Positions 27,615-45,564 of a DNA stretch of 64,000 bases are shown here, piece after piece. Each line of letters begins with the position of its first letter. Within the stretch, counting starts at the first letter, position 1. Source of the stretch: Streptomyces aurantiacus (GTDB lineage Bacteria > Actinomycetota > Actinomycetes > Streptomycetales > Streptomycetaceae); assembly GCF_027107535.1 (NCBI RefSeq), contig NZ_CP114283.1:5456001-5520000 (forward strand), read 5' to 3'. The notes under the pieces were generated by a model, which was not told the origin of the DNA, searched no databases, and worked only from the letters and a program-made list of their open reading frames with translations. The translations under genes were made by a program, and so were the position numbers.

Positions 27615-28066
27615 GCTCCAGCCCCTCCAGCCCCTCGCGTCGTGGACGCCCCGTCGGTCTTGGACCCGCACACCCGACCACCGGCCACCTTGATGAACAG
27701 GCCGGGCACGCCCTGGGTCAACGCAGACCAGGCGGGGGGCGCCCCGTCACAGAACCGCCAACGCAGGACAGCTCGCTCTCCTCGAAGACGACTTCACCGG
27801 GGAACAGCGCTTTCAGGCCGGTCAACCGGGCTGCCAGCGCATGGAGTTGAACGACCGCTTCGCGCCACTCGCCGTCCGTGCTGCAGGAGAGGCCCGACGA
27901 GGAGCGCATTCAGGCGTTGCGGCACCGGCCAAAGGCTCCACGGCGATCCTTGCGAGTTGACACTTGGGGACGCCTGGTCGGTACCGTTCCCCGCAGTGGC
28001 ACCCTGCTCCCCCTTCCGACGGGTGCCACACCCTGCCCATCGTTTCCCTCACCCCTCCGAGGCCTC
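27615..28066. other. Intergenic region with possible minus-strand remnant
   Basis: A 63-codon minus-strand frame at 27718-27909 (EWREAVVQLHALAARLTGLK) has fair codon bias but no start signal or known family and may be another gene fragment. Nothing else is visible. Confidence 0.3.
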
Positions 28067-28519
28067 GTGCGACGACTCCTTGCCCGTCTCTGGCGACTGC
28101 TGCGCCCTGTCCAGAGCCGCGTCATGTGGCTCCTCAACGCCAAGTTCGTCGTGGGTGTGACTGGTGTCGTGCGTGACGGCGAGGGACGGGTCCTGCTGCT
28201 GCGGCACCGCATGTGGTCTCCTGGCCGCCAGTGGGGACTGCCGAGCGGCTTCGCGCGCAAGGGTGAGGACTTCCGTTCGACCGTGGTGCGCGAGGTCAAG
28301 GAGGAGACGGGCCTCGATGTGGAGGCAGGTCGCCTGGTCATGCTGAACAGCGGATTCCGCACACGGCTGGAGGTGGCCTACGAGGCCCGCCTGGTGGGCG
28401 GCGAACTCCGCCTCGATCCCTTCGAGATCCTGGAGGCACGCTGGTGCCGGCCGGACGACCTCCCTGAGGGCGTCCAGCCGGTGTGCCACCCGCTGGTACG
28501 GGGCGAGACGACGCCCTGA
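28067..28519 (+). CDS. NUDIX hydrolase
   Basis: 150 residues with a complete Nudix box: GFARKGEDFRSTVVREVKEE followed by TGL, matching G-x5-E-x7-REUxEExGU, so metal-dependent cleavage of a nucleoside diphosphate linked to another moiety is expected. The N-terminus (VRRLLARLWRLLRPVQSRVM) is basic and amphipathic, perhaps peripheral to the membrane. GTG 28067 has GAGG five bases before it; longer frames upstream lack family likeness. Substrate unknown. Confidence 0.85.
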   Translation: MRRLLARLWRLLRPVQSRVMWLLNAKFVVGVTGVVRDGEGRVLLLRHRMWSPGRQWGLPSGFARKGEDFRSTVVREVKEETGLDVEAGRLVMLNSGFRTRLEVAYEARLVGGELRLDPFEILEARWCRPDDLPEGVQPVCHPLVRGETTP

Positions 28520-28694
28520 CAGTTGAGCCGACCGGGCTTCGTCGCCCGCTCACTGGTGCACGTCAACACGCTTACGACGCAGGAGGCCTCGGCCGATGCG
28601 AGGTGGGGGGCCAAGCTGACCGGCGCAGGGCGCGGTGTGCCCTGCAGATGTGGCCGGGCCGGGAACCGTGTGCTGTTCCCTGCCCGTGACCGGA

Positions 28695-28926
28695 TCAGTT
28701 CCAGGTCATGTTGATCGCGCGTTCGAAGTTGACGTATCCGGCGCGCCGGAAGGCGTTCGCCATGGGAGTGTTGCTGAGATCCGTGGACGCCCGGATGCGC
28801 GGAACCTTTTCCTCGGCGAGGACGCGGGTACCTTCGGCAAGGATCTCGTCGATGTAGCCGTTGCCGCGGTGCGCGGGCAGAACGGCCAGGTAGGCGATGA
28901 TCGAGTTAGCGAGCGCGAGTGTGACT
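28695..28926 (-). pseudogene. C-terminal remnant of a GNAT acetyltransferase
   Basis: The minus strand reads VTLALANSIIAYLAVLPAHR, then GNGYIDEILAEGTRVLAEEK, then STDLSNTPMANAFRRAGYVN to a stop at 28695: the acetyl-CoA loop and closing motif of a GNAT enzyme. An in-frame stop just upstream of VTLALAN cuts off the first half of the domain, and no start codon is suitably placed. Remaining bases in 28520-29072 show no gene. Confidence 0.7.
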
Positions 28927-29072
28927 GCGGGTCATGTGAGCCTCGTATTGATCACAGAGGCGTGCAGTGAACGGCTCCAGACGACGCAACCTCCCTCTGC
29001 CGTCGAGCAGTTCGTCCACCTGAGTCCCGACCCGGCCCGGGGGCCGTGGCGGCGGCACCCCCGAGGAATTCG

Positions 29073-29528
29073 CTACAGCTCCCGTTCGGCAACGATCTCG
29101 CCGTCGACCACCTCGCCGGTGACACGGAACCCGAGCCGCGTGCAGAAGGGCTCCGGCCCACCGTCACCCGGCCCCCACGACACCCACAGCCGCCGTTCAC
29201 CGCGACGCCGGGCCTCGGCACACACCGCCGCCACCGCGAAGCCGCCGTATCCCCGGCGCTGATGATCCGCAGCGATGTTGAGGCGCCACAGATAGCTCCG
29301 GTACGCCTCCACCGCGTGCGCCGGGTCGAAGCCGGCCATGACGAACCCGACCAACTGCTCCCCGTCACAGATCGCCCGGGGCCAGGCGACCTCCCCGTAC
29401 GCGTAGGCCTCGGCCAGCGAGGTCACGACCGGGTCGACGAATCGCTCCTGGCCAGGCCCCACGCGCAGCCGGCACACCGCATCGACGTTCTCCGGTGTGA
29501 CCTTCACCAGGTGCAGGGAGGGACTCAC
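29073..29528 (-). CDS. GNAT N-acetyltransferase (spermine/diamine acetyltransferase-like)
   Basis: 151 residues: SPSLHLVKVTPENVDAVCRL start, YLWRLNIAADHQRRGYGGFA acetyl-CoA loop, and LWVSWGPGDGGPEPFCTRLG, FRVTGEVVDGEIVAERE ending. This is the pattern of BltD/diamine-acetyltransferase-like GNATs. GTG 29528 has GAGGAG nine bases upstream. Target not established. It is divergent from the cellulase gene, whose promoter region begins just beyond its start. Confidence 0.87.
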   Translation of the reverse strand: MSPSLHLVKVTPENVDAVCRLRVGPGQERFVDPVVTSLAEAYAYGEVAWPRAICDGEQLVGFVMAGFDPAHAVEAYRSYLWRLNIAADHQRRGYGGFAVAAVCAEARRRGERRLWVSWGPGDGGPEPFCTRLGFRVTGEVVDGEIVAEREL

Positions 29529-29686
29529 GGATCGACACTCCTCGCATGACCGGTCGGCCTCGACTACTACCACCCGGGCGCCCAAAAGTCGCCGCCCGAC
29601 CGTCTGAGGCCAAAGCGGGTGCAGCCCGCACGCCGCCGTGGCGTACGGCTGCACCCAGGCATTTGCATTGCACGGCCACCGCAGGG

Positions 29687-29746
29687 TTGTCAGGGGCATG
29701 ACTGTACTTCTACAGTCCCAGCAGAACGGAAATGGGAGCGCTCCCA
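29687..29746 (+). promoter_or_regulatory. Endoglucanase promoter with CebR operator
   Basis: A candidate vegetative promoter, TTGTCA (29687-29692), 18-base spacer, TACAGT (29711-29716), is followed at 29733-29746 by the perfect palindrome TGGGAGCGCTCCCA. That is the consensus site of CebR, the cellobiose/cellotriose-released LacI-type repressor of streptomycete cellulose use. The site lies about ten bases after the expected transcription start, suited to blocking transcription. The element is seen; regulation by CebR is inferred from the consensus. Confidence 0.85.
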
Positions 29747-29810
29747 GCACGGGGGAACCCGGGAGTGCCAGCACGACCTCCATCTCCCGGCAGCTCCGAA
29801 AGAGGTCCCC

Positions 29811-30938
29811 ATGCGACCGCTACCGCATCTTCCACGTGCCGTACGCGGCGCGCTGGGCGCGCTCGTCACCGCGTTCGCGACCATCGCCGCACTCTCCACC
29901 GCCACGCTGCCCGCCCAGGCCGACACGACCGTCTGCGAACAGTTCGGCTCGACCGTCGTCCAGGGGCGCTATGTCGTCCAGAACAACCGCTGGGGCACCA
30001 ACGAGCCTCAGTGCGTCACCGCCACTGACGCCGGCTTCCGTGTCTCCCGGGCCGACGGTTCCGTACCCACCAACGGCGCGCCCAAGTCGTATCCCTCCCT
30101 GTTCAACGGCTGCCACTACACCAAGTGCTCGCCGGGCACCGCTCTCCCCGCGCAGCTCTCGAGCATCTCCAGCGCGCCCAGCAGCATCTCGTACGGCTAC
30201 GTCGGCGATGCCGTGTACAACGCCTCGTACGACATCTGGCTGGATCCGGCGCCCCGCACCGACGGCGTGAACCGGACCGAGATCATGATCTGGTTCAACA
30301 AGGTGGGACCGATCCAGCCCATCGGCACCCAGGTCGGCACGGCGACGGTGGGAGGACGCACCTGGCAGGTCTGGTCGGGCAGCAACGGCGCCAACGACGT
30401 CCTGTCCTTCGTCGCCCCGTCGGCGATCGGCAGCTGGAGCTTCGACGTGATGGACTTCGTCCGGCAGGCGGTGACCCGCGGACTGGCACAGAACAACTGG
30501 TACCTGACGAGTGTTCAGGCCGGCTTCGAGCCCTGGCAGAACGGCACGGGACTGACCGTGAACTCGTTCTCCTCGACCGTCAACGCAGGGGGCGGCGGCC
30601 CCGGCGGCCCGGGCGGCGGCACGGCCTGCGAGGTGGCGTACACCACGAACGTGTGGCAGGGCGGCTTCACGGCGAACGTCACCGCCACCAACACCGGTTC
30701 GGCGCCCCTCGACGGCTGGCGACTCGCCTTCACCCTGCCCTCCGGCCAGAGCATCACCAGTGCCTGGAACGCCTCCGTATCCCCGTCCTCGGGACCGGTC
30801 ACGGCGAGCGGCCTCACGCACAACGCGAGCATCTCCCCCGGCGGCAGCCAGACGTTCGGGTTCCAGGGCACCTACGGCGGCGCGTTCGCCGCTCCGGGCG
30901 GGTTCAGCCTCAACGGGACTGCCTGCACTCGGGCGTGA
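29811..30938 (+). CDS. Secreted GH12 endo-beta-1,4-glucanase with CBM2
   Basis: 375 residues: signal peptide (cleavage near AQA-D, residue 37), GH12 catalytic domain about 40-258 with nucleophile Glu157 in VNRTEIMIWF and acid/base Glu240 in QAGFEPWQNG, Gly/Pro linker 259-270, and a cellulose-binding CBM2 (272-375) bounded by cysteines with surface Trp residues (NVWQGG, DGWRLAF, SAWNAS). It cuts amorphous cellulose outside the cell. AGAGG precedes ATG 29811. Control by CebR is expected from the operator upstream. Complete gene with its own promoter and terminator. Confidence 0.93.
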   Translation: MRPLPHLPRAVRGALGALVTAFATIAALSTATLPAQADTTVCEQFGSTVVQGRYVVQNNRWGTNEPQCVTATDAGFRVSRADGSVPTNGAPKSYPSLFNGCHYTKCSPGTALPAQLSSISSAPSSISYGYVGDAVYNASYDIWLDPAPRTDGVNRTEIMIWFNKVGPIQPIGTQVGTATVGGRTWQVWSGSNGANDVLSFVAPSAIGSWSFDVMDFVRQAVTRGLAQNNWYLTSVQAGFEPWQNGTGLTVNSFSSTVNAGGGGPGGPGGGTACEVAYTTNVWQGGFTANVTATNTGSAPLDGWRLAFTLPSGQSITSAWNASVSPSSGPVTASGLTHNASISPGGSQTFGFQGTYGGAFAAPGGFSLNGTACTRA

Positions 30939-30944
30939 CCGGAC

Positions 30945-30977
30945 CGGCGCCGGGCGCTCGTGTGGCGTCCGGCGCCG
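30945..30977 (+). terminator. Hairpin terminator after the endoglucanase gene
   Basis: A 13-bp stem, CGGCGCCGGGCGC with GCGTCCGGCGCCG (one G-T pair) around a seven-base loop, begins six bases after the stop codon. Confidence 0.75.
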
Positions 30978-31127
30978 CTCCATGGCCTCGTTGCGTCCGG
31001 CCGGAATGTGAGGCGAACAGCAGAGTGCCACTGGGTGCGACGGCATCCAGCAGGTCGCGCAGCGCAAGGTAAGGCGCCGACGCGCTCTGGCCGGCCCGCC
31101 GTGGCCACCGAGTGGGACTTGCCGAAC

Positions 31128-31364
31128 TCACTGCCGAGCTGCGCTCGTGCCCACGATGTCGATGGCGACCCGCAGCGGTGTCTCCGCGCGCCCCAGCAGT
31201 TCGCGGGTGATTGCGATGGCCTGGATGACGGTCACGCCGCGCTCGTACAGGAAGGCCTGAACGGCCTCCATGCCGTCGCTCTCGAGGATTGGTCGTGACT
31301 GCTCGACCAGCGCGACCCAGCGTGCGGCCTCCTCGGGACGTAGTCCGTGGACGTAGTCGAACAT
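31128..31364 (-). CDS. Small hypothetical protein
   Basis: 78 residues, helical, opening MFDYVHGLRPEEAARWVALV and containing AVQAFLYERGVTVIQAIAIT. It resembles small regulator-like proteins with a helical hairpin, but I do not recognise the family. Start is good: AAGAGGAC precedes ATG 31364. No cysteine or membrane stretch. It lies between the cellulase gene and the kinase region. Confidence 0.6.
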   Translation of the reverse strand: MFDYVHGLRPEEAARWVALVEQSRPILESDGMEAVQAFLYERGVTVIQAIAITRELLGRAETPLRVAIDIVGTSAARQ

Positions 31365-31751
31365 GTCCTCTTCTTTCCGTGCTGAACCGGTGGACGACTC
31401 ACGTGCAGTCGGACCGCTCGTGGCACTCACTGAGAGTCGCCGCCGTCGGCTACGGAGGCAGCAGCCATTCCCATGCGGGCCGCGAGCTGGGCAACATCCG
31501 CGATGTCGCTGTAACTCACCTGGACGCCGCCCGTCTTACGACGAGTGGAACACACAGTCCCGTGGACGAGTTCGCCGAGGTGCGGCGAACGAGCTGGTTT
31601 CGCAGCCGCGGTGAGTGATCGTGCGGGAATTGCCACCCACCCGCAAGACAGAAGGCGCGTCGTACGAGACGCCACGATGCCACAAGAGATCCAGAGCCCT
31701 TGCTCCGCCATCTCACCGGCGGAATGCCCGACGAGACGCCATGATGGCCCG
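31365..31751. other. Intergenic region, no gene seen
   Basis: 387 bases between a minus-strand and a plus-strand gene; must hold both promoters. No convincing frame. Confidence 0.4.
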
Positions 31752-32423
31752 ATGGGAGACGGGAACGCGTTGCCGACCCTCGCGGGAGCGCTCGTCGGCG
31801 TCCTGGCCACAGGGCTCGTAGGGTGGTTCGGCCCTTTGCGGCTCCAGCGGCGACAGGCCGAGGCCAATGCCGGGCTGCAGGAACAACTGCGCCTGCACGA
31901 ACTGGGGCTGGAAGAGATGCGGACACGCAGCGCTCTCGAGCTGCAACGCCTGCAGTACGAACACGAGCGGGAGTTGGGCGCGGTGCAAAGCGCACAGGCG
32001 CGGGTCGATCGGATCGTGTGCTTCCGTCTGGTGGGCAGCGCCTGGATGCAGGCGATCGTGGCCGCGCTGAGCCGCCTGGACGCAGGAGAGCAGGTGGACC
32101 CAGCAGTCCTCGACGAGGAGTTCACAAGGCTCCGGCGGGAGACGGATGAGGCGGCTGCACGATTGATGTTGGACGGGGTGTGGGTGTCGTCGGCCGATGA
32201 CGAACACGGGATGACGGCCCCGCTGTTCGCGGCGATGGCCCGCGCGACGGAGGCGCTGCGTCGCCATGTGGTGGGCGAGGTGGCCCGCCCCGCCGTCGCA
32301 GCGGGTCCGGTTCCGGCGGAGGTACGGGAGGCGGTGCGCGCGGCCGAAGTTGCTCGGGAGCATTTCCGGGCGACACTGTTCGAACTGCTGGCGCTTGAGG
32401 GGGCAGGGGTGCGCCGTCTGTGA
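31752..32423 (+). CDS. Membrane-anchored coiled-coil protein, unknown function
   Basis: 223 residues. One N-terminal membrane helix (TLAGALVGVLATGLVGWFGP, about 8-27), then a long charged coiled coil (about 28-85, LHELGLEEMRTRSALELQRL and on), then a helical cytoplasmic domain. No enzyme motif. The layout resembles that of the protein at 37847-38377 on the other side of the kinase gene. It converges with the kinase remnant and ends only 25 bases from it. ATG 31752 is chosen for the position of the membrane helix; the ribosome binding site is weak. Confidence 0.62.
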   Translation: MGDGNALPTLAGALVGVLATGLVGWFGPLRLQRRQAEANAGLQEQLRLHELGLEEMRTRSALELQRLQYEHERELGAVQSAQARVDRIVCFRLVGSAWMQAIVAALSRLDAGEQVDPAVLDEEFTRLRRETDEAAARLMLDGVWVSSADDEHGMTAPLFAAMARATEALRRHVVGEVARPAVAAGPVPAEVREAVRAAEVAREHFRATLFELLALEGAGVRRL

Positions 32424-32447
32424 GAGGGGCGGGCGGTCTCTCCCGGA

Positions 32448-32546
32448 TCAGGGACAGATGTTCCGGTAGGGAATGTTCGGGATGTGCATCTGCCACTCCT
32501 GCCGACTCAGCGTACGGCTCGCTTCCGCGCATACGGCCTTGACGAT
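32448..32546 (-). pseudogene. Severed C-terminus of the kinase-WD40 gene
   Basis: The frame reads IVKAVCAEASRTLSRQEWQM then HIPNIPYRNICP and stops. This Cys-Arg-Trp-Pro-Tyr tail is the usual cap of actinobacterial nSTAND/WD40 proteins. It joins in frame to the kinase-WD40 gene if the IS and one copy of its target duplication are removed (QAI before, VKAV after). The stump has no start of its own, so it is not expressed as designed. Confidence 0.88.
32543..32546. repeat. Target-site duplication, left copy
   Basis: CGAT directly beside the IS end; its partner is at 33866-33869. Four-base duplications are known for several IS3 subgroups such as IS407. Confidence 0.85.
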
Positions 32547-32575
32547 TGTCAATCCCCTCGGACTGTGGAGATCTT

Positions 32576-33508
32576 CTAAGCGGCCAGCTCCAAGGCGGAG
32601 TTGGCTCGGTGGTCGTGTTCGTAGTCGATCGGGCTCCGGTAACCGCACACGCTGTGTAGCCGACGGGTGTTGTAGAAGCCGGTGATCCAGGTCGCGATCC
32701 TGATCCGGGCCTCGGTGCGGGTGGCGAAGGTGTGCCGGTGGACGTACTCGACCTTGAGTACGCTGTTGAACGCCTCGCTGACGGCGTTGTCGAAACATGA
32801 CCCGACCCGGCCCATGGACTGCGTCACGCCCAGACGCCGGCAGGCCCGGCGGAAGCGCCGGGACACATATTCGCTGCCCCTGTCGCTGTGGAAGATGACG
32901 CCCTTGACGTCGCCGCCACGGGTGGCCGCGGCCATGTTCAAGGACGCAACGACGAGTTCAGCGTCGTGACGTGCACCCATCGCGTAGCCGAGCAGGCGGC
33001 GCGAGAACAGGTCGATGACGGTGGCCAGATACAGCTTGCTCTCACCAGTGGCGATCTCTGTCATGTCGCCGCACCACACCTGGTCTGGAGCGTCGGCGGT
33101 GAAGTCGCGGCGGACAAAGTCCGCGAACGCGGGCCGTTTGCCGGGGCGGGTCAGCCCGCCCCGTCGACGGATCTTCCGTCCGGCCAGGCCGAGTTCGGCC
33201 ATGAGATGCGCGACGGTGTTCACTGAGACGCGCCAGCCGGCGCGGATCAGGAGGAGCCAGACCTTCGGAGAACCGTAGGTGCCGCCGGAGTTCTCGAAGA
33301 TCTGTCGGATCGCGTCGGCCAGCTGTCCTCGCCGCACTTCACGAGCGGTGGTGGGCTTGTCGCGCCACTTGTAGAACCAGGACTCCGACACTCCCAGAAC
33401 CCGGCAGGCCAGGCGGTGCGGGACGTGGTGCTCGGTCCTCTGGTTACCGATGAACGCGGCCAGGGCGGCCGGGTCCGTTTCGGTCACTTCACCCAGAGGA
33501 CCATGCAT
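32576..33508 (-). CDS. IS3-family transposase OrfB (DDE integrase core)
   Basis: 310 residues: HTH_21-like segment (HRLACRVLGVSESWFYKWRD, then GGTYGSPKVWLLL), followed by the rve integrase core with Asp in WCGDMTEI, Asp in FHSDRGSEYVS and Glu in NAVSEAFNSVLKVE, and the closing RLHSVCGYRSPIDYE. It catalyses cutting and joining of IS ends. The frame is -1 relative to OrfA and overlaps it by 25 bases; no A6G slippery run is seen, so OrfB may start at its own ATG 33508 by coupling. Confidence 0.93.
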   Translation of the reverse strand: MHGPLGEVTETDPAALAAFIGNQRTEHHVPHRLACRVLGVSESWFYKWRDKPTTAREVRRGQLADAIRQIFENSGGTYGSPKVWLLLIRAGWRVSVNTVAHLMAELGLAGRKIRRRGGLTRPGKRPAFADFVRRDFTADAPDQVWCGDMTEIATGESKLYLATVIDLFSRRLLGYAMGARHDAELVVASLNMAAATRGGDVKGVIFHSDRGSEYVSRRFRRACRRLGVTQSMGRVGSCFDNAVSEAFNSVLKVEYVHRHTFATRTEARIRIATWITGFYNTRRLHSVCGYRSPIDYEHDHRANSALELAA

Positions 33509-33813
33509 CGCTTGAGGACATCACGCTCCATCTCCAGCTCGCGGATCCGCTTGTTCTTCTCCGCCGCATCCCGCCGCAGCCGCTCCAGCTCGGCCCGCTC
33601 GGCTTCGCGCAGCCGCCCGCCCGGTGCGGGCTCGGCAGGATGGTCGGACGACGCCGACCCATTGCGCCGCCACCGCGACACCCAGCTGTGCAGCGTGCCG
33701 GAATGCACACCGAGCTCCTCGGCGACCTCCGGGATCGGCCTGCCCGTCTCGATCACAATGCGTACAGCACCCTCACGAAACTCAGGCGTGTACGTCCGTT
33801 GCTTGGACCCCAT
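33484..33813 (-). CDS. IS3-family transposase OrfA (helix-turn-helix)
   Basis: 109 residues of the HTH_Tnp_1 family: RTYTPEFREGAVRIVIETGR, PIPEVAEELGVHSGTLHSWV, then a leucine-zipper-like coiled coil (ERAELERLRRDAAEKNKRIR). It binds the IS ends and pairs with OrfB. ATG 33813 is preferred over a start seven codons upstream. Confidence 0.92.
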   Translation of the reverse strand: MGSKQRTYTPEFREGAVRIVIETGRPIPEVAEELGVHSGTLHSWVSRWRRNGSASSDHPAEPAPGGRLREAERAELERLRRDAAEKNKRIRELEMERDVLKRCMVLWVK

Positions 33814-33848
33814 GAACCTCAACTTCCCCTGCAATCACGGACTCCACG

Positions 33849-36800
33849 CTACGAGGGGAGGGACACGATCGCCTGAGGCGCCAAGGCGTAGCTCTCCAGC
33901 AGCGGAGTCTTCCCGTCGTCGCTTCCGCTGTCGGAGGTGGTCAGTAGGTATCCCGTACCCGCGCTGAAAGCGAGGCGGGACGGCTGGTTACCCGGAAGGA
34001 GCGGATCGCCGATCTTGCGTAGGGTGCTCGTGTCCCACAGCTCCACCGGGTCGCCACTCTGCGGAGCCAGGACCAGGGTGTGACCGTCCGCCGACAAGGC
34101 CATCTCTACTGGCGGTTCACCGAACAGCGATCCATGGCTCACCCAGTTCGGTGCGACGACACCAATGGACCGGCGCCGGGCAAGGTCCCACAGACGTACC
34201 CGCTCGTCCCCCTCGTCGGCTGCCAGGATGTGTCCGTTGGCGCTGACGGCCACCCGTCTCGTGGATGAGCCGTCAAAAGGTCTGCGGATGATGTCAGTCC
34301 GTGTGTCGACGATCTCGCCTTCGTCGGTGATGACCGTGGCGCCGTCCGGTGCAAAGGCGACGGGCAGGCCCGTGACCTTCGGGACCGAGCGGGTCACGCG
34401 ACCGTTGGAAACGGCCCACAGCCGCAGGGAGTTGGGCCCATGGGTCACGACGTGCCTGCCGTCGGCGGAGAGGACGACGCCCACCGGTGACTCGTAATAG
34501 TAGGAGCTGTTGCTCTCCCCGACACCTGGATGCAGTACGGCAAGGACCCGATGCCGTTCTGTGTCCCAGACAGTGACCACCCCCTTGACGGTCACTGCCA
34601 GAGTTCGGCCGTCGCGGCTCAGCGAGATCCCCGACACCTTGGCGCCCTTGGCCGAGGTGAATGGTGTTCCCACCACCCGGCCGTCGACGGTGTCATGCAG
34701 TTCCACGAAGGGCCGGGAAACGCCACGTCCGGTCTTGCGGCTCACTGCCAGACGGCTTCCGTCCCCGCTGAATGTCGCGTTGCGCGGCGGTCCATTGCCG
34801 TACTGCGTAGCGTGCGACCGCCATGCGATGGTGCGGACCGCTGAATGCTCGCGGTCGGCAGGCGTACTCGCGACATAGTGCAGGACGCCCGAGTTCCGTC
34901 CGAAGCTGATGCTCGGGGGCCTGTCCACCACGGGCAGTTCGTACAGCCCTACGTTGCTCTCTCTGTCGATGTCCTTGATCCAGATCGCTTCACGTTCGGC
35001 GATGGCCAGAAATTGCCCGTCCGGGCTGAAAGCGAACTTGATGTCCCGTACTCCCCTGACGTCGTGCGCGGTGTATGAGAAGGCCGCGTCCTTCACTGCA
35101 CCAGTACGCGCGTTCCACAGCCCGAGGGCCCAGTCTCCGCTGCTGTCCACGGCGTCGGCGACTCCGCCGGCCACGCCCAGCACGCGACTGTCCGGACTGA
35201 ACTTCAACAGGTCCACGCCATAGGTCTGCAGCAGCGGCTGCCCGATACGTCGTCCGGACCGGGTGTCCCACAGTTCCAGCGCGTCATGCCGGACGACCGC
35301 GAGCCGCCGACCGTCGGGACTGAGGGCCACGAATGACGGACCGACAGATGGCACTCGGACGCGGATGGTCCTACGGTCCTTCACGGTGTCCCAGACGTGC
35401 AGTTCGCCACCCTCACTCACCGCGACGGTCCCACCGTCGCCGGACACCTCCACGGGATCGCTCTCGGACGTTCCGTAGGCCCCTTTGCCGAATGACCGTG
35501 ACGATGGCCGCCAAAGCCTGACTCCGGCTGTAGTCGGCAGGGCGATCACGGATCCGTCCCGGTTCATGACGGCGCGCGAGAACATGGAATCGAACCGTTT
35601 CGACCCCAGCGAGAGCGTGCCCTTGACCCTGCCGGTGGCGAGATCACTCACGATGATGCGGGCTCCACCCCGCGCATGGGCAATCGTGGACGTGTCGTCC
35701 GACAGCATCGCTGCGCCCGCCGGAACGACGCGTTCGTCCCGCTCCGGTTGGGTGGCCGCTGCCAGGAGGCCCAAACGAGTCTCCTCGAGCTGTGCGATAT
35801 GCCAGGCCGCCACATTGAGCAACCTGGCGGTCACGGGTTCCCAGCGGCGCAGGGCCTCGGCACGCGACGCGGCACGGCGGGCTGCGGACTCAATCTGTTC
35901 CCGCTTCAAGCGCGTGCGGCGTTCCTCGCTCAGGGTATTGATGTTCCAGGCCACGGTGGCGCTGACCACCGCGAGAAATGCCAGCGCCAGAGCGGTGACG
36001 GTCAGCCGCCGGCGCTGGGCGCGCCGTCGGCGGCCAACCCGCTGGGCTGTCGCCAGGTAGGCCTGTTCAAGAGGACTGAGCCGCATATGAGCCGGTGCCG
36101 TGGTCGACCACTCGACAGTCCGCTCGAGCTCCGTGCCCTGCACCAGCGCATCGTCCTTGCGCCCATGACCCTGCCAGGCTCGGGCGCCCTCGCCCAAACG
36201 GCGATGCATGCGCAACCCTTCCCGGTCATCGGAGATCCAGGAGCGCAGTCTGGGCCAGGCCACAACCAGAGCGGAGTTACGGACTGCCACCGTGCTCACC
36301 TCGCCATCACCGCAGCTGAGCAATCCTGCCGCGGTGAACGCAGTGAGCACACCGCGGACCGATGCCGCGCGGCCCGGTGAGTCGGCGTCCGACAACTCCG
36401 CAAGGGCGACAGTGCAGACGGTGTCGCTCACGCCGGTGCGGTCGTCCGCCGGGACGACCATACGGAGGAACACTTCCCGCGCGGAGTCCTGTTCCGCAGT
36501 GTTCAGGCCGGCGAAGACATGCTCGGCGATGTCGCCGAGGGGCAACAGCAGGCCACTCGAGCCGGCTGCCGGCCGCAACAGCCGCGCCTGCCGGGTGCCC
36601 TCCATCACGGCCAGCTCCCCGTCCTGGCCGCAGGGCCCTCCCGGGCGGGACGTGAGACCGTACAGCAGCCCCATCGCGCTCGGCCGGTGTACCGGGTCCT
36701 CGTCCAGAGCGGCACCCACCAGGGAACGCAGCGGTTCACTCAGCATCGACCGGTCATGCCGACCACCGCGAACGAGCGAAACGGTGTGCCCCAGGTGCTC

Positions 36801-37445
36801 TCCGCCGAACGGGTCGCGGCCGGTCGCAGCGAACAGCACGGTGGCGCCCCAGGCGAAGACGTCCGCGCTCGGAGCGGCCGGCTCGCCGTCGAACACCTCA
36901 GGAGCCGTGTAGGCGGGAGTCCCCGCAAGCCCGGCCGGCTGTGTAGCGGTGAGGTCCAACAGCCGGGCGACACCGAAGTCGATGACGACAGGCCCGCTGC
37001 ACCCCAGAAGGACGTTGTCCGGTTTGAGATCCCGGTGCACCACCTGTACATCGTGAATCCCGCACAGCGCGACGGCCACGGCGAGCGCCAGCCGGTGCAG
37101 GTCCTCACCCCGGAACGGCCCGTGCTCGTCCACCGCTGCCCGCAGGGTCGGGCCGTCGATGAACTCGCTCACGACATGCGGGCGCGGCCCGTGTACGACA
37201 GCCTCGATGAGTCGTGCGGTGCAGGCGACAGAAACCCTTTGGGTGGCCTCCACCTCTTTGATCAACCGCCGTGCCGCCTCGGAGCCCTCCGCCTCCGTAG
37301 CGTGCAGCAACTTCAACGCGACACGGGCCCCTTCAGGGTCGTACGCCTCGTACACCGTGCCCTGTCCCCCGCTGCCGACCCGGCGACCCAGCCGATACCG
37401 CCCCACGCGCAAAGGCTGCAAGGGCGCAGCCTCCTCAGGATGCAC
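33849..37445 (-). CDS. Ser/Thr protein kinase with STAND-like arm, membrane helix and WD40 propeller (3' end replaced by IS)
   Basis: 1198 residues. Kinase domain about 15-265: GSGGQG (24-29), Lys45, HRDLKPDN (137-144), DFG (156-158), APE (181-183), all active-site residues kept. Residues about 300-475 match the winged-helix and helical arm after the NTPase in nSTAND1 proteins (ALVVAWPRLRSWISDDREGL), but no P-loop is present. One membrane helix follows (about 482-502), then an outside or periplasm-like WD40/beta-propeller region to the end. The last codons (SLPS) come from the IS; the native tail lies at 32448-32546. GTG 37445 has GGAG upstream. Substrate and ligand unknown. Confidence 0.88.
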   Translation of the reverse strand: MHPEEAAPLQPLRVGRYRLGRRVGSGGQGTVYEAYDPEGARVALKLLHATEAEGSEAARRLIKEVEATQRVSVACTARLIEAVVHGPRPHVVSEFIDGPTLRAAVDEHGPFRGEDLHRLALAVAVALCGIHDVQVVHRDLKPDNVLLGCSGPVVIDFGVARLLDLTATQPAGLAGTPAYTAPEVFDGEPAAPSADVFAWGATVLFAATGRDPFGGEHLGHTVSLVRGGRHDRSMLSEPLRSLVGAALDEDPVHRPSAMGLLYGLTSRPGGPCGQDGELAVMEGTRQARLLRPAAGSSGLLLPLGDIAEHVFAGLNTAEQDSAREVFLRMVVPADDRTGVSDTVCTVALAELSDADSPGRAASVRGVLTAFTAAGLLSCGDGEVSTVAVRNSALVVAWPRLRSWISDDREGLRMHRRLGEGARAWQGHGRKDDALVQGTELERTVEWSTTAPAHMRLSPLEQAYLATAQRVGRRRRAQRRRLTVTALALAFLAVVSATVAWNINTLSEERRTRLKREQIESAARRAASRAEALRRWEPVTARLLNVAAWHIAQLEETRLGLLAAATQPERDERVVPAGAAMLSDDTSTIAHARGGARIIVSDLATGRVKGTLSLGSKRFDSMFSRAVMNRDGSVIALPTTAGVRLWRPSSRSFGKGAYGTSESDPVEVSGDGGTVAVSEGGELHVWDTVKDRRTIRVRVPSVGPSFVALSPDGRRLAVVRHDALELWDTRSGRRIGQPLLQTYGVDLLKFSPDSRVLGVAGGVADAVDSSGDWALGLWNARTGAVKDAAFSYTAHDVRGVRDIKFAFSPDGQFLAIAEREAIWIKDIDRESNVGLYELPVVDRPPSISFGRNSGVLHYVASTPADREHSAVRTIAWRSHATQYGNGPPRNATFSGDGSRLAVSRKTGRGVSRPFVELHDTVDGRVVGTPFTSAKGAKVSGISLSRDGRTLAVTVKGVVTVWDTERHRVLAVLHPGVGESNSSYYYESPVGVVLSADGRHVVTHGPNSLRLWAVSNGRVTRSVPKVTGLPVAFAPDGATVITDEGEIVDTRTDIIRRPFDGSSTRRVAVSANGHILAADEGDERVRLWDLARRRSIGVVAPNWVSHGSLFGEPPVEMALSADGHTLVLAPQSGDPVELWDTSTLRKIGDPLLPGNQPSRLAFSAGTGYLLTTSDSGSDDGKTPLLESYALAPQAIVSLPS
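33866..33869. repeat. Target-site duplication, right copy
   Basis: CGAT beside the other IS end, within the kinase-WD40 frame. Confidence 0.85.
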
Positions 37446-37846
37446 CCGGGTCTCCTGCCGCTCTCCATGCCCTGGCGCGCTCAGAGCTCACAAAGGCGAA
37501 CGACCGGGTTGGGCCCGCTCTTGGGCCGCGCGCGGCTCCCACCCGGGAGGAGTCGATCACTGGCCGTGACCAGTCCAGCTTCTTCGTCGCCCGTGGCTTC
37601 TTCCACAGCGCCAAGTGCGGTTCGTGCCACAGGCCGGTCTCGTTCCACACAGCCTGGCGCCACCCACAGTTCGGTCGAGACGATCCACGGCTTCGATCCC
37701 TCTTCCCCACGGCAGAACCAACGAGCCATCAGGCCGAAAGTCACATGATCTACGGCTTCCGTTATGCCCCCCAGTGGGACGCAACCGTTGCGGGCTCCTG
37801 CAGAGACGGACCACCAGCTCCATCCGATGCTCAGCGAGTTCCGCGG
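37446..37846. other. Intergenic region with a doubtful minus-strand frame
   Basis: A GTG-started frame at 37481-37744 (87 codons, MTFGLMARWFCRGEEGSKPW) has moderate codon bias but no ribosome binding site and no known family. If real it would be cotranscribed with the kinase gene; I do not call it. Confidence 0.3.
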
Positions 37847-38377
37847 CTAGGACTTTCGAAGTACCTCGCCCATCAGGCGAGACGTTGCCTGATAGGAATT
37901 CGATATATCCCCCAGACAGCTCCCCCAGTGCTGCATGCCCTGCGAATCCGGGTCTTTCGCCTCGTGTGGGGTTTTGACCAATGCGCCTATCGCGGCGACA
38001 CCGTTGTTGAGATGGCCGCAAACTGAGCCGGCGGCTTGGATCACCTCCATGTGACCGCTCGGCCAAAGGTCATCGAGGAAACTCGTATAGGCCGCGACGT
38101 ACGCCTTTCTGGCGGGCGCCTCGGTCACAGGCTGGTCATCGGCCAGAGCCTGAGCGACGTCGTGCAGAGCCGCCATGGTCTCGTTCACCTTGTCCCTGAA
38201 TCCGCTGAAGCGCTCCTCAAGATCTACTTCGTGCCGCGTCAGCTTCTCCCGCTGCGCGGTTCGGTCGATCTGCTCACGAGTCGTACGCCCGGCCATGACT
38301 GACCCGAGTGCAGCCCCCGCAGCGCTGGAGAACCCCGCTACGGCCGAAGCCAACACCACCGCCGTGGCCTGATCCAT
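37847..38377 (-). CDS. Membrane-anchored hypothetical protein
   Basis: 176 residues. N-terminal membrane helix (AVVLASAVAGFSSAAGAALG, about 6-26), then a charged helical stretch (REQIDRTAQREKLTRHEVDL) and a helical cytoplasmic domain with no catalytic motif. It is upstream of the kinase-WD40 gene on the same strand, 400 bases away, and mirrors the layout of the protein at 31752-32423. ATG 38377 is the start that places the helix at the N-terminus. Confidence 0.65.
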   Translation of the reverse strand: MDQATAVVLASAVAGFSSAAGAALGSVMAGRTTREQIDRTAQREKLTRHEVDLEERFSGFRDKVNETMAALHDVAQALADDQPVTEAPARKAYVAAYTSFLDDLWPSGHMEVIQAAGSVCGHLNNGVAAIGALVKTPHEAKDPDSQGMQHWGSCLGDISNSYQATSRLMGEVLRKS

Positions 38378-38759
38378 CCGACGATTCTGCCTTACCACTG
38401 CACTGACGTCACCCCCCGAACTGCGGTGCGCCAGAGCAGACTTGGCAACCCGAGTCGCGGAAGACCACGCCTCTGGCCGGGCGCCTCCCCCGTTGGGGCA
38501 CCGACGCCGACCGAGATTCTCCGCTGCCCGCTCACCCCACCGGCTCAGCCGTTCATTTCCGCATGGAAAGAAGTGACATCGCAGCATGCGGCGCGGGGCA
38601 GCGACGTGATCCGGCGGACGTGCCGCAGGTTCCCGAAGCGGGGACAGCGGGCAGCGGTGCAGGAGATACCCACTCGCACCCTGCGCCGGGAGGGCGGCGC
38701 GACACGTTCAACGGCAAGGACCATACTGGTCGGGCCTTGATCTCCCACAGAACGGTTCC
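38378..38759. other. Intergenic region, no gene seen
   Basis: 382 bases between divergent genes; must hold promoters for both. No supported frame. Confidence 0.4.
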
Positions 38760-39917
38760 ATGGTTAAGAACAGCAGCTCTTCGACAACAGTCCCCGACAC
38801 CGCGTGGCTGGCACGCGGGCGCCATCTCGGGCCCGAACCCGAGCAGGACGTGCGGCGCAACCTGATCGCCCTCAAGGCAGCCGGGGTCCTCGACGACTTC
38901 CTGGACCTCGACCCCGTGGAGGCGGCCCGCTCCACCGTCCTGCACCCGCGGGACGAGGCCGCCGACCCCGGCCCGTCAGCCCGCCGGCTCTTCGAGGCCC
39001 GCTGGCGCGTGGCCGACGGCGTCACGGTGCGTGCGCAGTTGACCATGCGCGAGCACGGTGCCCGCCGTACGGACGGCGCGGGCATCACCTGGGTCCTGGC
39101 CGCCGAGGCGGAGCAGGCATGGGACCCGCAGTGGCCCTCGCCGGCCACCATGTTCTGGCCGGACAGTGACCGCATCGCCTGGGACGACGATGTGCTGCCT
39201 GGAGTGCGTCTGCGTACGGCGAACCACCTGCCGAAGGATGAGGACGAGCTCCGCCGCCGTCTGCGGGACTGCTCCCGCGACACTTGGTACATCCACGTAT
39301 TGGTCCATGAGGCCATGACGCCTGATGAGCGGGGGCGGCAGCCGGTCTCCACGTTCCTGCCACCGAGCCTGCGGCACCAGGTGGTCGAGCACCGGGCCGC
39401 TCCGGCGCAGTCTGATATCGCCGACTTCGCGATCAATCGGGAGCTGAAGGTGCGGATGCCGCGCGGCGGTGCCGTCGTCCTGCCCACGAAGCCGCGGAGC
39501 CCGGACTACGACGCGGAGCGTTTCACCGTGCACAGTGTCTTCCTGGACGGCTCCGAACCAGCAGAATTCCTCGACCTCATCGAGGAGTTCGCCACGCTGC
39601 CGCGACCGCTGCCTGAAGGTGCCGAGCAGGCCCTGACGCAGTTGCGCCAGGGCTGGCACCTGCTGACCCCGGACGAGGAGTTGGTGCACGCTCAGGGGAT
39701 GGTCATCAAGTATGCCGAAGCGCTCGATGCCATGACCAAATCCTGTGATCTCTACCAGAAGGCGGCCGAAGCAGCGCAGGCCGCATTGGCGGAGTTCACC
39801 AGCGGTGACGCTTCGTCCCGGCCGCCGGTGCCGGAAGCGGCCGAGACGAGCAGCTCACCGCTCAACGCCATCATGAAGGGACTCGGCCGCTTCCGAGACC
39901 CGAACAGAGAGAAATAG
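38760..39917 (+). CDS. Hypothetical protein, 385 residues
   Basis: Soluble, acidic, rich in Arg/Asp/Trp, without signal peptide or membrane helix. The middle part (AGITWVLAAEAEQAWDPQWP, PDERGRQPVSTFLPPSLRHQ) suggests a globular domain; the last 80 residues form a helix (YAEALDAMTKSCDLYQKAAE) then a disordered Ser/Pro/Glu tail. I recognise no family. Divergent from the membrane-anchored gene at 37847-38377. Codon bias is normal for the genome. Confidence 0.68.
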   Translation: MVKNSSSSTTVPDTAWLARGRHLGPEPEQDVRRNLIALKAAGVLDDFLDLDPVEAARSTVLHPRDEAADPGPSARRLFEARWRVADGVTVRAQLTMREHGARRTDGAGITWVLAAEAEQAWDPQWPSPATMFWPDSDRIAWDDDVLPGVRLRTANHLPKDEDELRRRLRDCSRDTWYIHVLVHEAMTPDERGRQPVSTFLPPSLRHQVVEHRAAPAQSDIADFAINRELKVRMPRGGAVVLPTKPRSPDYDAERFTVHSVFLDGSEPAEFLDLIEEFATLPRPLPEGAEQALTQLRQGWHLLTPDEELVHAQGMVIKYAEALDAMTKSCDLYQKAAEAAQAALAEFTSGDASSRPPVPEAAETSSSPLNAIMKGLGRFRDPNREK

Positions 39918-40012
39918 GACGCCCACGCGTGCGTCCGCCGAGCGCCCGGCCGGGTGGAAGTAGATCCCCGCCCTGCCCATCGCGGGGCACTACAGCCGGT
40001 TCACGCGCGGCA

Positions 40013-41713
<1,701 letters not shown>

Positions 41714-41914
41714 CTACAAGCTCGTTCATCGCCCCGTCCAACGCTTTCTCAGGCACACGAAAACGACTCCGATCGGCTCGTGCGCTTGCAGGGCGAATCC
41801 GGCGTGCCGGCCTGGCCGGGCCCGGTCACGCTCGATGATCTGCTCCCGGCCGCTCCGGAGGCGGACCGGATCTCGGAAGACGGCGCTGCCCGGATGGGGT
41901 TCAGGAATGGCGGC

Positions 41915-42190
41915 TCAGGGGCTGTCGCCGGACCAGTCGAAACGGGTCGGGTCGCCCGGCCGCGGGTCGTACAAGGCATGTCCGCCTGCGCCGAACCGGC
42001 CGAGCTCGGTGGACAGGGCGGCGCCGGCCGCGATCCGGTCCGGCGTCCAGTCGGTGACGTCCAGGAGCAATCCGTCCAGAGGACCGCCGACCAGAACCGC
42101 GTACGACCGGTCCCGTCGTGGGCCCGGGTCGGGGTCGTCATGGTCGTGGCCGTACACCCGGCCGCGCAGAAGCTGCTCGTCGCCATTCAC
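41915..42190 (-). CDS. Small acidic hypothetical protein
   Basis: 91 residues, opening VNGDEQLLRGRVYGHDHDDP and containing VLVGGPLDGLLLDVTDWTPD and GAGGHALYDPRPGDPTRFDW. Compact, Asp-rich, probably a single small domain of unknown family. GTG 42190 has only a weak ribosome binding site. Codon bias supports a real gene. Confidence 0.6.
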   Translation of the reverse strand: MNGDEQLLRGRVYGHDHDDPDPGPRRDRSYAVLVGGPLDGLLLDVTDWTPDRIAAGAALSTELGRFGAGGHALYDPRPGDPTRFDWSGDSP

Positions 42191-42756
42191 AACACTCAGC
42201 CTGCCACCCGTCACTGACAATGAGCCCTGACGGCTGCCCGGCGGTCCGGGTGCAGGACGGCACACCCTTCACGTCCAACCGTCGGGACGAGCCCGCCTTC
42301 CCGGTCGTCTCCGCGCCGCACCAGGGGAACGAAGCAGTCGGGAGGGCACCCCCATGGGCTGTCCGGTGACGATGCGGTGCGGGTGAGGCGGGCGCCGGGC
42401 GGCACCCGCCTCCTTGTCGACGCCCGCGTCAACGGTCGGACGGTGTTCGCGGTGTCGTCGCGTGCGGGCGCCGGAGCGCGCGCCGCGCTATGCCTTACTG
42501 AAGGCGATCAGGGTGCCCTCGCCGCCCGGCACGAAAAGCCGTGCCTTGGACGTGACGGGGCCAGGGACGACGAACCCACGCGAATCGTCCTCGGCGTCGC
42601 CCCCCGGCCCGGTCGCGCCCGCCGGCGCCTGCCGGCTGGTGGCCCCGCGCCGCGACTGACCATGGCCTCGTGCGCGCCGCGGCGAGTCCCCACGGCTCGC
42701 ACGAGGCGGATCCGCACACGGTCCCGGCCGTGCCCCGCTCCGATGCCCCGGACCGG
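42191..42756. other. Intergenic region, possible 3' remnant
   Basis: 566 bases. A minus-strand frame ending at 42488 closes with RLFVPGGEGTLIAFSKA and has fair codon bias for its last 40 codons, perhaps the end of a lost gene. No other feature is seen; no terminator for the ABC operon could be placed with confidence. Confidence 0.3.
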
Positions 42757-43332
42757 CTACCGCCTCGGTCCCGCGACGGCGTAGGCCGTGGTGCCGACGA
42801 CCGTGAGGACCAGGGCCGTCCAGGTGCCCGCCGTGGTGCCGGGCGGCAACAGCATCCAGGTCGCCACCTGTGTCGGCACACTCGTGGCAGGCGGAGCGAA
42901 GAAGGAGAACGCGACCCAGGCGAACGGCAGCGTCCATGCGTACTGGCCGCCCGAGAGCGCGGCGCCCAGGGCGGCCAGCCCCATCAGGCCCGCGCAGTCC
43001 CGCACGACGAACGCGATGGTGGCCGGATCCCCGCCCAGCGTCTGCACGGTCAGCAGCACCGTGCCGACGACCACGCCGCAGAGCAGCACGTGCGCCGCCC
43101 TGCGGGGTGCCCAGCGGATGGCGGCGGTCCGGTCCAGCGCGAGGTCCTGCCCGCTGAGCCCGATCGAGGCAGCCATCGCCCCCATGGCGAGGACGAGCGC
43201 GGGCAACCGCAGATCCGCAGGCTCCCCGGTGGCGTCCCGGGTGAGTGCCCACACCCCCACCGCGCTGATCACCACTGCCGCGAGCGAGGCGGGTACCTGC
43301 CGCGAACGCGCATACAGCGTCAGCCATCTCAT
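42757..43332 (-). CDS. Membrane protein of the sigma/ABC operon
   Basis: 191 residues with about five to six hydrophobic helices (VPASLAAVVISAVGVWALTR, LVLAMGAMAASIGLSG and further). No catalytic motif. Its ATG overlaps the permease stop (ATGA), so it is the last gene of the operon and is probably a second, smaller membrane subunit of the ABC-2 exporter. Confidence 0.75.
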   Translation of the reverse strand: MRWLTLYARSRQVPASLAAVVISAVGVWALTRDATGEPADLRLPALVLAMGAMAASIGLSGQDLALDRTAAIRWAPRRAAHVLLCGVVVGTVLLTVQTLGGDPATIAFVVRDCAGLMGLAALGAALSGGQYAWTLPFAWVAFSFFAPPATSVPTQVATWMLLPPGTTAGTWTALVLTVVGTTAYAVAGPRR

Positions 43333-44726
43333 CGGGACGCATCGCCTTTCAGCACGTCGAACGCGTCGCCCTCGCAGGAGAGCGCGGCGGCGCGCATCGC
43401 GTTGATCCGCGTGAGCTGTTCGGCCCGCGGGAGTGCCTTGAGTTCCCTCCACACCGGGCGGGTCTCGGCGTCGACCACGCGGCGCATGTTTGCCGGCGTG
43501 CCGGGAAGCATGCTGAGGTCTCCGAGGACCCAGCCCGCCGCGACGGTCTGCGCGTATTCGTCTCCCCCGAAGCCGCTCCAGCCAACGGGGGTGCACCCTG
43601 GCACCATGCCTTTGGCGACCAGGGCCCTGGTCAGCTGGTTATCCTTCGCGGCGGCGGCGATGATGTCGTCGTCGAAGTCGAAGAGCACGGTCTCGCGGGA
43701 CCACTGCGGCGTGGAGCCTTCCGGCAGAACGGCGGCGTTCTCCCGGACCGAGACCGGCGCCTGGCTCCCCAGGGCGCCGCGCAGCAGGCGCAGCGCCTCC
43801 TTGCCGGGGCCCGCGAGGTCGGCGAGGTGTCCCTCGTGCATCTTGGTCACACACACCGGCCCGTCACACACCAGTTCCGCCGCTGCCTCGTCGACGACAT
43901 ACATCCGCCGCGGGTCGGTCGGCAGGACGAGCAGGGCGATCACCGCGCCCGCCAGGACAGGCGTCAGGGCGATCAACCGGGCACGCAGTGTTCCGGCGAC
44001 CAGCAGAGCGAAGCCTGTCGCGGCCATGCCGAGCAGCCAGATCGTCTGTCCGACGTGCACGGACGCGGAGAGCGTTTCGAGCACATCGCGGACCTCCGTC
44101 TCCGGTGACAGCAATGAGAGCTGGTTCGGCTCCGTGCTCGTGATCCCCATCGAATTGGGAGCCGTCTCCGTCCGGCCCAGCGACATGTGCATGAGAGCCG
44201 TGAACACGAGGGCGCCCATGGTCAGCAACGGCGGGGTGAGCGCGGACGGCAGGGCCCGCCCTCCTCCCATGCCCAGCATCGCCCCCGCGACGAGGAAGAG
44301 TGCCGCCACCAGTGAGATCGGCAGCCACCCGGGGTGCGTGTACTCGGTGTGGGCGAGCACCTGGACCCCGCCCACGACGACGAGGAGCGCGAAGGCCGAG
44401 ACCAGCGTGATCGCCGACGTGCCCGCAAGCATGGCCGCCCGGTGCCAGGCGGGCCTCGGTGTGCTCGTCAGCAACTCGGACATCTTCGAGCGGTGGTCGC
44501 GCAGGCCCTGCAGCGCCCCGAGCCCGACGGCCATCGGCCACAGGTAGAACAGCAGCGAGCGGGTCCACATCGCCAGGGACGACCACTGGGCCGTCCACGC
44601 TGTGGCCCCTAGCCACCACTCTCCGGGAATCAGATACAGGAACGCCAGCGCGCTCGTCAGGACCACAGCGCCGGCCCACGGAGCGACGGAGCGCCTCAGC
44701 TCGATACGCAGGACACGGACGTTCAC
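43329..44726 (-). CDS. ABC-2-type transporter permease
   Basis: 465 residues. Six or so membrane helices in the first 310 residues (WAGAVVLTSALAFLYLIPGE, ALVVVGG-type helices, LIALTPVLAGAVIALLVLP), then a hydrophilic C-terminal domain of about 150 residues with two cysteines (ELVCDGPVCVTK) likely outside the membrane. Such an extra domain is unusual for a plain ABC-2 permease. GTG 44726 overlaps the ATPase stop (GTGA). Exported substrate unknown. Confidence 0.8.
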   Translation of the reverse strand: MNVRVLRIELRRSVAPWAGAVVLTSALAFLYLIPGEWWLGATAWTAQWSSLAMWTRSLLFYLWPMAVGLGALQGLRDHRSKMSELLTSTPRPAWHRAAMLAGTSAITLVSAFALLVVVGGVQVLAHTEYTHPGWLPISLVAALFLVAGAMLGMGGGRALPSALTPPLLTMGALVFTALMHMSLGRTETAPNSMGITSTEPNQLSLLSPETEVRDVLETLSASVHVGQTIWLLGMAATGFALLVAGTLRARLIALTPVLAGAVIALLVLPTDPRRMYVVDEAAAELVCDGPVCVTKMHEGHLADLAGPGKEALRLLRGALGSQAPVSVRENAAVLPEGSTPQWSRETVLFDFDDDIIAAAAKDNQLTRALVAKGMVPGCTPVGWSGFGGDEYAQTVAAGWVLGDLSMLPGTPANMRRVVDAETRPVWRELKALPRAEQLTRINAMRAAALSCEGDAFDVLKGDASR

Positions 44727-45532
44727 CAGGTCCCCCTTTCCTGCTTGGGGTTCTGCAGCATCGCCGAGTAGCCGCGCTCCAGCGGGCTGTCGCCCACGTG
44801 CTCGGGGCCGCCCGCCGAGGCCAGCTCGTCCGGTGGGCCCTGGAAGACCAACCGGCCCTCGGCAAACAGCACCACGTCGGTGCACGCGGCGGCGACATCC
44901 TCCACCAGATGGGTCGAGACGAGCACGCAGGTGTCCGCGCCCAACTCCTGCAGCAGCTCGCGAAATCGAAGCCGCTGCGCCGGGTCCAGACCGACCGTCG
45001 GCTCGTCCAGCAGCAGGATCGAGGGGTCGTTGACAATGGCCTGGGCGATGCCGACGCGCCGCACCATGCCGCCCGACAGGGCCTTCATCCGCTCATCGGC
45101 GCGGTCCGCCAGGCCGACCCGCTCCACGGCCCGCTGGACCGCCCCGGGGATGTCCGCCTTGGGCACCTCCTTCAGCCACGCCATGTACTCGACGAACTCG
45201 CGCACCGTGAAGCGCTTGTAGTAGCCGAACTCCTGCGGCAGGTAGCCGATCCGCCGGCGCAGCGCACGGTGCTCGCCCATGCCGCCCGCGGACTGGCCGA
45301 GCAGCTCCAAAGTTCCTTCAGTCGGGCGCAGTACGGTGGCCAGAGCCCTGATGAGGGTGGTCTTGCCCGCTCCGTTGGGGCCGAGCAGACCGTGTACGCC
45401 GGTGCCGAGCTTCAGATCGAGCCCGTCGACCGCCATCCGTTTGCGCCCGACCCTGACTCGCAGCCCGGTGGCCTGGATCTGCCAGGCGTATGTCGTCGGC
45501 GCGAGGTCGGCCGCGCTCACCGCGGTCTTCAT
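44723..45532 (-). CDS. ABC transporter ATP-binding protein
   Basis: 269 residues with complete ATPase motifs: Walker A GPNGAGKTT, Q-loop YLPQEFGYY, signature LSGGMVRRV, Walker B ILLLDEPTVGLDP, H-loop STHLVED. The RFTVREFVEYMAWLKEVPK stretch places it with ABC-2 exporters of the bacitracin/daunorubicin-resistance kind. GAAGGA precedes ATG 45532. It follows the anti-sigma gene by 32 bases and overlaps the permease start. Confidence 0.93.
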   Translation of the reverse strand: MKTAVSAADLAPTTYAWQIQATGLRVRVGRKRMAVDGLDLKLGTGVHGLLGPNGAGKTTLIRALATVLRPTEGTLELLGQSAGGMGEHRALRRRIGYLPQEFGYYKRFTVREFVEYMAWLKEVPKADIPGAVQRAVERVGLADRADERMKALSGGMVRRVGIAQAIVNDPSILLLDEPTVGLDPAQRLRFRELLQELGADTCVLVSTHLVEDVAAACTDVVLFAEGRLVFQGPPDELASAGGPEHVGDSPLERGYSAMLQNPKQERGTW

Positions 45533-45564
45533 GTGATGGTCCTTCCGAGGGTCGTTTCCAGTGG

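Follow-up and report, generated by a model that had tools for sequence, protein, structure and literature searches.

An insertion sequence (IS) of the IS3 family has cut into a gene for a Ser/Thr kinase joined to WD40 repeats in Streptomyces aurantiacus, and the last 30 native residues of the gene product have thereby been lost. The gene lies in a stretch of 64,000 nucleotides that we call the window (positions 5456001-5520000; the contig measures 9.54 Mb, and the only other contig of the assembly 360 kb). We consider it probable that a recent IS insertion has deprived a membrane receptor of a latch on its extracytoplasmic half and left it with a weakened sensor. Truncation by IS3-family elements is a common and known kind of event and is ordinary in itself; the interest lies in the tail that was removed. 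Three points go beyond the initial annotation of this stretch, namely, that the lost tail held the only two cysteines of the part of the protein that follows the membrane helix, that the host gene encodes a predicted membrane receptor, and that, in a near relative, a different event seems to have removed this region too.

The insertion and the sequence it removed

On the coding strand, the target sequence CAG GCG ATC G runs directly into the start of the element, TGTCCCTCCCCTCGTAG. The present open reading frame (ORF) comprises native residues 1-1194 followed by S-L-P-S and a TAG stop, all encoded by the element, while codon 1194 is itself a GTG hybrid of one target base and two IS bases in which Val is retained. 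The initial annotation had correctly read four IS-derived codons at the end of the gene, to which the hybrid Val and the stop can be added. Its reconstruction of the ancestral gene was likewise confirmed, in that joining the flanks by script with a single ATCG, that is, without the element and one CGAT, yields an open frame of 1,224 amino acids in which APQAI is followed by VKAVCAEASRTLSRQEWQMHIPNIPYRNICP.

Members of the IS3 family have imperfect terminal inverted repeats and duplicate 3 to 5 bp of their target. The element in the window, which had been assigned to this family from the outset, carries transposase genes of the expected types, with orfB scoring 304 bits against NCBIfam model NF033516 (cut-off, 160), an orfA/orfB overlap in the -1 frame, imperfect repeats that begin with TGTC and agree at 19 of their first 24 positions (alignment, counted by eye), and a short target duplication (Table 1). 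Its ends, length, and CGAT flanks are as first annotated, and a comparison with IS3-family insertion sequences, to which it is alike in all these respects, brought no oddity to light.

Sites lacking the element, which had been proposed as a check, were found in two relatives. Streptomyces sp. BV286 (locus L057, NZ_JAHRIB010000181.1; 91% identical) has collinear flanks and a single ATCG near position 9561; the DNA matching window positions 33865-37471 and 31668-32546 is contiguous there, and the protein reads into VKAVCTEASRTLSRQEWQTHIPNLPYRNICP. In S. xantholiticus (locus L056), the gene is intact, again with a single ATCG, near position 9591. Because such sites exist, the insertion is not a chance pattern of the window sequence. 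The DNA of the ORF that converges on the kinase gene also adjoins this gene in both relatives. That the restored tail is typical of these proteins, as originally suggested, is supported by P0001 of Streptomyces sp. NPDC020802 (92% identical), which has the same C-terminal end, ...ALAPQAIVKAVCTEASRTLSRQEWQTHIPNLPYRNICP, and by P0002-P0004, which end likewise with small differences. Two window segments, 31410-31667 (258 bp) and 37873-38436 (about 564 bp), are missing from BV286 amid collinear DNA; both are single-copy in the genome, which rules them out as repeats. No other whole-gene DNA match was obtained among 392 genomes of the genus (its own included), the runner-up being 78% identical over 266 bases, and a megablast search of a plasmid collection gave no match to the kinase gene. 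A protein search of 100 relatives gave kinase or WD40 matches in 99 of them and, among the matches listed, no close full-length orthologue.

The idea that the loss is recent fits the data, since the genome carries three full copies of the element that are 100% identical across 1,319 bp and the kinase gene has no excess of nonsynonymous changes. When codon changes were polarised with S. xantholiticus, the window branch had 19 nonsynonymous and 46 synonymous changes and the BV286 branch 11 and 36 (Fisher p = 0.52), a weak test given the few changes; decay of the kinase gene was not detected by it, and the remaining 1,194 codons are open. The other two copies lie on contig C2 (5011272-5012590 and 5051030-5052348) in the same orientation, 40 kb apart. 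One is flanked by a 3-bp GAC duplication and the other by none, which may reflect recombination between copies. Full-length relatives of the element occur on Streptomyces plasmids at 97.8% and 97.7% identity; outside its own genome, the best full-length match listed for the 392 genus genomes is 89% identical.

Table 1. Features at the insertion site (window coordinates)
Feature	Position	Strand	Description	Evidence
Truncated kinase-WD40 gene	33849..37445	-	1,198 aa	ORF list, Pfam, hydropathy, end codons
Orphaned gene 3' end	32448..32542	-	30 codons 32451-32540, stop 32448-32450, two native bases of Val codon	Homologous to P0001 and L057 tails
IS3-family insertion sequence	32547..33865	-	1,319 bp; transposase genes codirectional with kinase gene	Pfam, NCBIfam, ends
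IS orfA	33484..33834	-	HTH_Tnp_1	Pfam
IS orfB	32576..33508	-	DDE-type integrase core (rve), HTH_21; frame -1 relative to orfA	
Target-site duplication CGAT, left copy	32543..32546	.		Flank comparison
Target-site duplication CGAT, right copy	33866..33869	.		Flank comparison
Convergent neighbour ORF	31545..32423	+	292 aa; no Pfam/NCBIfam match	

Conservation and likely role of the tail

Homologues were collected with residues 1-1194 as the query, and because this query lacked the tail, the tail could not bias the resulting set; the search gave 904 matches, 120 of which were listed and examined. A terminal pair of cysteines spaced 24 to 27 residues apart, borne by the tail that we refer to as the cap, is present in 119 of these 120 homologues (with a spacing of 25 in 92) and missing from the window product. 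Homologues ending like the present product, which the initial annotation had named as evidence that would speak against it, do not occur among the 120, and the only one that lacks the pair is P0005, a truncated protein. A stricter rule, with the second Cys within the last six residues at the same spacing, is satisfied by 107 of the homologues, by 1 of 342 other genes of the fetched loci (4 of 345 at first, three of which were set aside by eye as relatives of the query), and by none of the 33 window genes; a looser pair rule admits 22 of the 345 and 4 of the 33.

The tail consensus reads C-x2-A-G-R-x-L-[TS]-x2-E-W-...-P-Y-R-x-V-C. Within the segment bounded by the pair, Trp occurs in 113 of 119 homologues and EW in 96, while in 95 of the 120 the EW dipeptide lies within 35 residues of the C-terminus and a narrow motif is found in 80. 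Of the 22 near-invariant columns that follow the membrane helix in an 83-row alignment, 4 belong to the tail (its C, L, W, and C); the two structure alignments took in 81 of the 120 homologues, P0005 and 38 others being omitted. Conservation extends to more distant loci, 80 of which were fetched and 77 retained after the exclusion of 3 that run off their contig: the Cys pair closes 66 of these 77 closed frames and a narrower EW-type motif 35. When the final 40 residues of the BV286 protein were searched against Pfam, NCBIfam, and PDB sequences, nothing matched at E values up to 1, and searches of open-licence PMC text brought up no description of a C-terminal Cys-pair cap. In the genome of the window, a paralogue (L156, contig C1 155500-160500, on the 360-kb contig) has a Cys pair at 1182/1207, at the end of its open stretch, and these are the only cysteines within the last 700 residues of that stretch. 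At another locus (L155, contig C2 5729500-5736500), an open stretch of 2,034 amino acids contains a cap-spaced pair at 1598/1623 with some 400 residues beyond it; the cap may be non-terminal here, or the frame may overrun the true end.

The window product consists of a Ser/Thr kinase domain (residues 17-260; PF00069, E = 2e-34), the C-terminal part of an nSTAND1 domain (304-431), a hydrophobic helix at about residues 481-499, and WD40 repeats. The nSTAND1 match (PF20703) spans only profile positions 261-378 of 379, and the P-loop nucleoside triphosphatase (NTPase) part of this domain is absent from the product. By its domain matches, the protein looks as if the kinase had taken the place of the NTPase part in an nSTAND1-WD40 receptor. 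P0010 and P0036 likewise have a kinase joined to the C-terminal third of nSTAND1. Hydropathy peaks at 2.25 at residue 481, and 119 of the 120 homologues have a peak of 1.5 or higher; the charge before the helix exceeds that after it in all 120. From this we infer that the WD40 half is outside the cell and the kinase and nSTAND1-like linker inside. A WD40-type propeller is supported by Pfam, the AlphaFold model, and PDB matches, and two propellers are modelled.

The insertion itself and the loss of 30 residues are established, as are the element-free sites in relatives and the near-universal occurrence of the tail among the homologues examined: an IS3-family element whose transposase frames are open has moved, recently as it seems, into codon 1194 of 1224, duplicating CGAT. 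We propose that the gene encodes a Ser/Thr kinase that spans the membrane once, with its kinase and linker inside and two WD40 propellers outside. AlphaFold models the tail as two helices (predicted local distance difference test [pLDDT], 93 to 97), and the number of cysteines after the helix is even in 105 of the 120 homologues, with the cap pair alone in 36. Sequence and model together suggest that the tail, which would lie outside the cell, is likely a latch: two paired helices, closed by a disulfide, that would hold the second propeller at its end, probably close to the juxtamembrane helices. Because the remaining frame is open, a receptor without the latch is most likely what is made, and the most probable consequence is that the sensor would be weakened or uncoupled while the kinase domain stays intact.

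Several observations weigh against assigning the tail such a role. Homologues share ancestry, so that the counts given above are not independent, and 15 of the 120 have an odd number of cysteines after the helix. Eleven of the 77 distant loci lack the pair under a spacing rule of 22 to 30; among these, L063, L079, and L105 do have a terminal Cys pair, 21 residues apart and thus outside the limit, and in several others the script appears to have picked the wrong frame. The truncated ectodomain, modelled with the same alignment partners, retains a predicted fold (pLDDT, 88.9; about 92 for the last strand and 75 for the final residues). Propeller collapse, which we had entertained, is therefore not predicted and was rejected, misfolding is not claimed, and the loss of the tail may be mild. 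Since AlphaFold judges protein stability poorly, the fold prediction says nothing for or against a destabilised receptor. In the VIA-align rows listed, no alignment passes model residue 705, so that none spans the whole cap, a region that VIA-align itself flags as barely tested.

An apparent second C-terminal loss and alternative explanations

P0005, from Streptomyces sp. NPDC060006, is a protein of 738 amino acids that is 93% identical to the window product over the aligned part. It keeps the kinase, linker, and transmembrane helix, and its WD40 region is gone. Residues 4-550 correspond to window positions 37436-35790; from residue 552 to the end at 738, the protein instead follows positions 32246-31685, where it reads the convergent neighbour ORF in antisense. 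Apparently, a separate deletion would have taken its whole ectodomain, as judged from this match, although an assembly fault is possible for a sequence known as protein only. C-terminal parts are thus lost in two of the seven sequences of the close group (window, BV286, and P0001-P0005; at least 66% identity), by different routes; two cases cannot tell whether such losses are selected.

The same insertion could also have had little effect, if the tail is functionally minor and the shortened receptor still folds and functions almost as before. The predicted fold of the shortened ectodomain and the kinase gene's lack of decay signs are both in keeping with this; the retention of the tail in all but one of the listed homologues and its share of near-invariant columns are not, and we regard a minor tail as unlikely. 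At the other extreme, the gene may be dead, its protein degraded or unmade, and the locus a pseudogene too young to have decayed. A conserved tail has after all been lost, P0005 has likewise lost C-terminal parts, and the gene is rare in the genus. The open remaining codons and the unraised nonsynonymous-to-synonymous counts argue for a living gene, neither being decisive for a recent event, and a dead one seems to us improbable.

Finally, the present end could be ancestral, or the product of an assembly misjoin, in which case no tail was lost. Three identical IS copies can indeed mislead assembly, and nothing else speaks in favour of this explanation. The element-free sites of BV286 and S. 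xantholiticus, which meet at one ATCG, the tails carried by P0001-P0004, the assembly of the genome in only two contigs, and the 4-bp duplication that borders the element all contradict it, and we give it hardly any credence. A recent insertion that would have cost the receptor its latch is the explanation that we prefer.

Relation to known systems and wider meaning

Kinase-WD40 proteins have been known since the 1996 reference for PkwA of Thermomonospora curvata, and kinase domains are found in the products of many prokaryotic WD40 genes (PMC5587647). PkwA is alike in joining a Ser/Thr kinase to a WD40 propeller; a single seven-bladed propeller makes up its solved part (residues 449-738; construct, 441-742), which stops four residues short of the construct's end, with no space for a cap (PMC6113231). 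In contrast, the window protein has two modelled propellers, an nSTAND1-like linker, and a predicted transmembrane helix, with the cap in its relatives. The nSTAND1-WD40 proteins (PF20703) also have WD40 repeats behind the nSTAND1 C-terminal part, but the window protein has a kinase in place of the NTPase part; in many of the distant loci, the match starts only at this nSTAND1 part, and a majority of those examined close with the same Cys pair.

Transmembrane kinases are regarded as likely receptors, and PknB-type PASTA kinases have the arrangement predicted here, of a kinase inside, one transmembrane helix, and a sensor outside (PMC1262709). The nearest structures to the window kinase domain are of the PknA/PknB/StkP-like type. 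However, WD40 repeats stand in place of PASTA: the Pfam table of the product contains no PASTA model, and NF033483 covers the kinase part only, at 137 bits versus a cut-off of 450. AfsK of Streptomyces also carries C-terminal propeller-type repeats (PMC1262709), and its model is the best NCBIfam match of the kinase domain, but the score is 139 bits versus a cut-off of 1300 and concerns the kinase domain only.

A defence island was considered and dropped. The PADLOC matches to the PD-T4-6 and mad6 defence kinases (25 of 32 listed) all fall within residues 8-265, the kinase part, and of six neighbours scanned with PADLOC only the ABC-type ATPase at 44723-45844 gave matches, mostly to generic ATPases. 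The neighbours with a Pfam family look ordinary, comprising a GNAT acetyltransferase, a GH12 cellulase, a flavin hydroxylase, the ABC ATPase, and a sigma-70 factor; three of the nine scanned have no family. No RNA element reached the gathering score in 28000-46000.

On a wider view, the cap might be an undescribed general module of actinobacterial membrane receptors, a disulfide-closed helical element that latches their extracytoplasmic double propeller irrespective of whether a kinase or an nSTAND1 domain lies inside, and the losses in the window and in P0005 would then amount to experiments of nature that harmed the sensor but spared the kinase. We offer this generalisation tentatively, as a possibility rather than an expectation. 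The genome of the window and BV286 form a natural pair that differ at the insertion site. By singling out a 30-residue tail, the event provides a concrete and inexpensive handle on how the little-characterised membrane WD40 receptor kinases of bacteria hold their sensor together.

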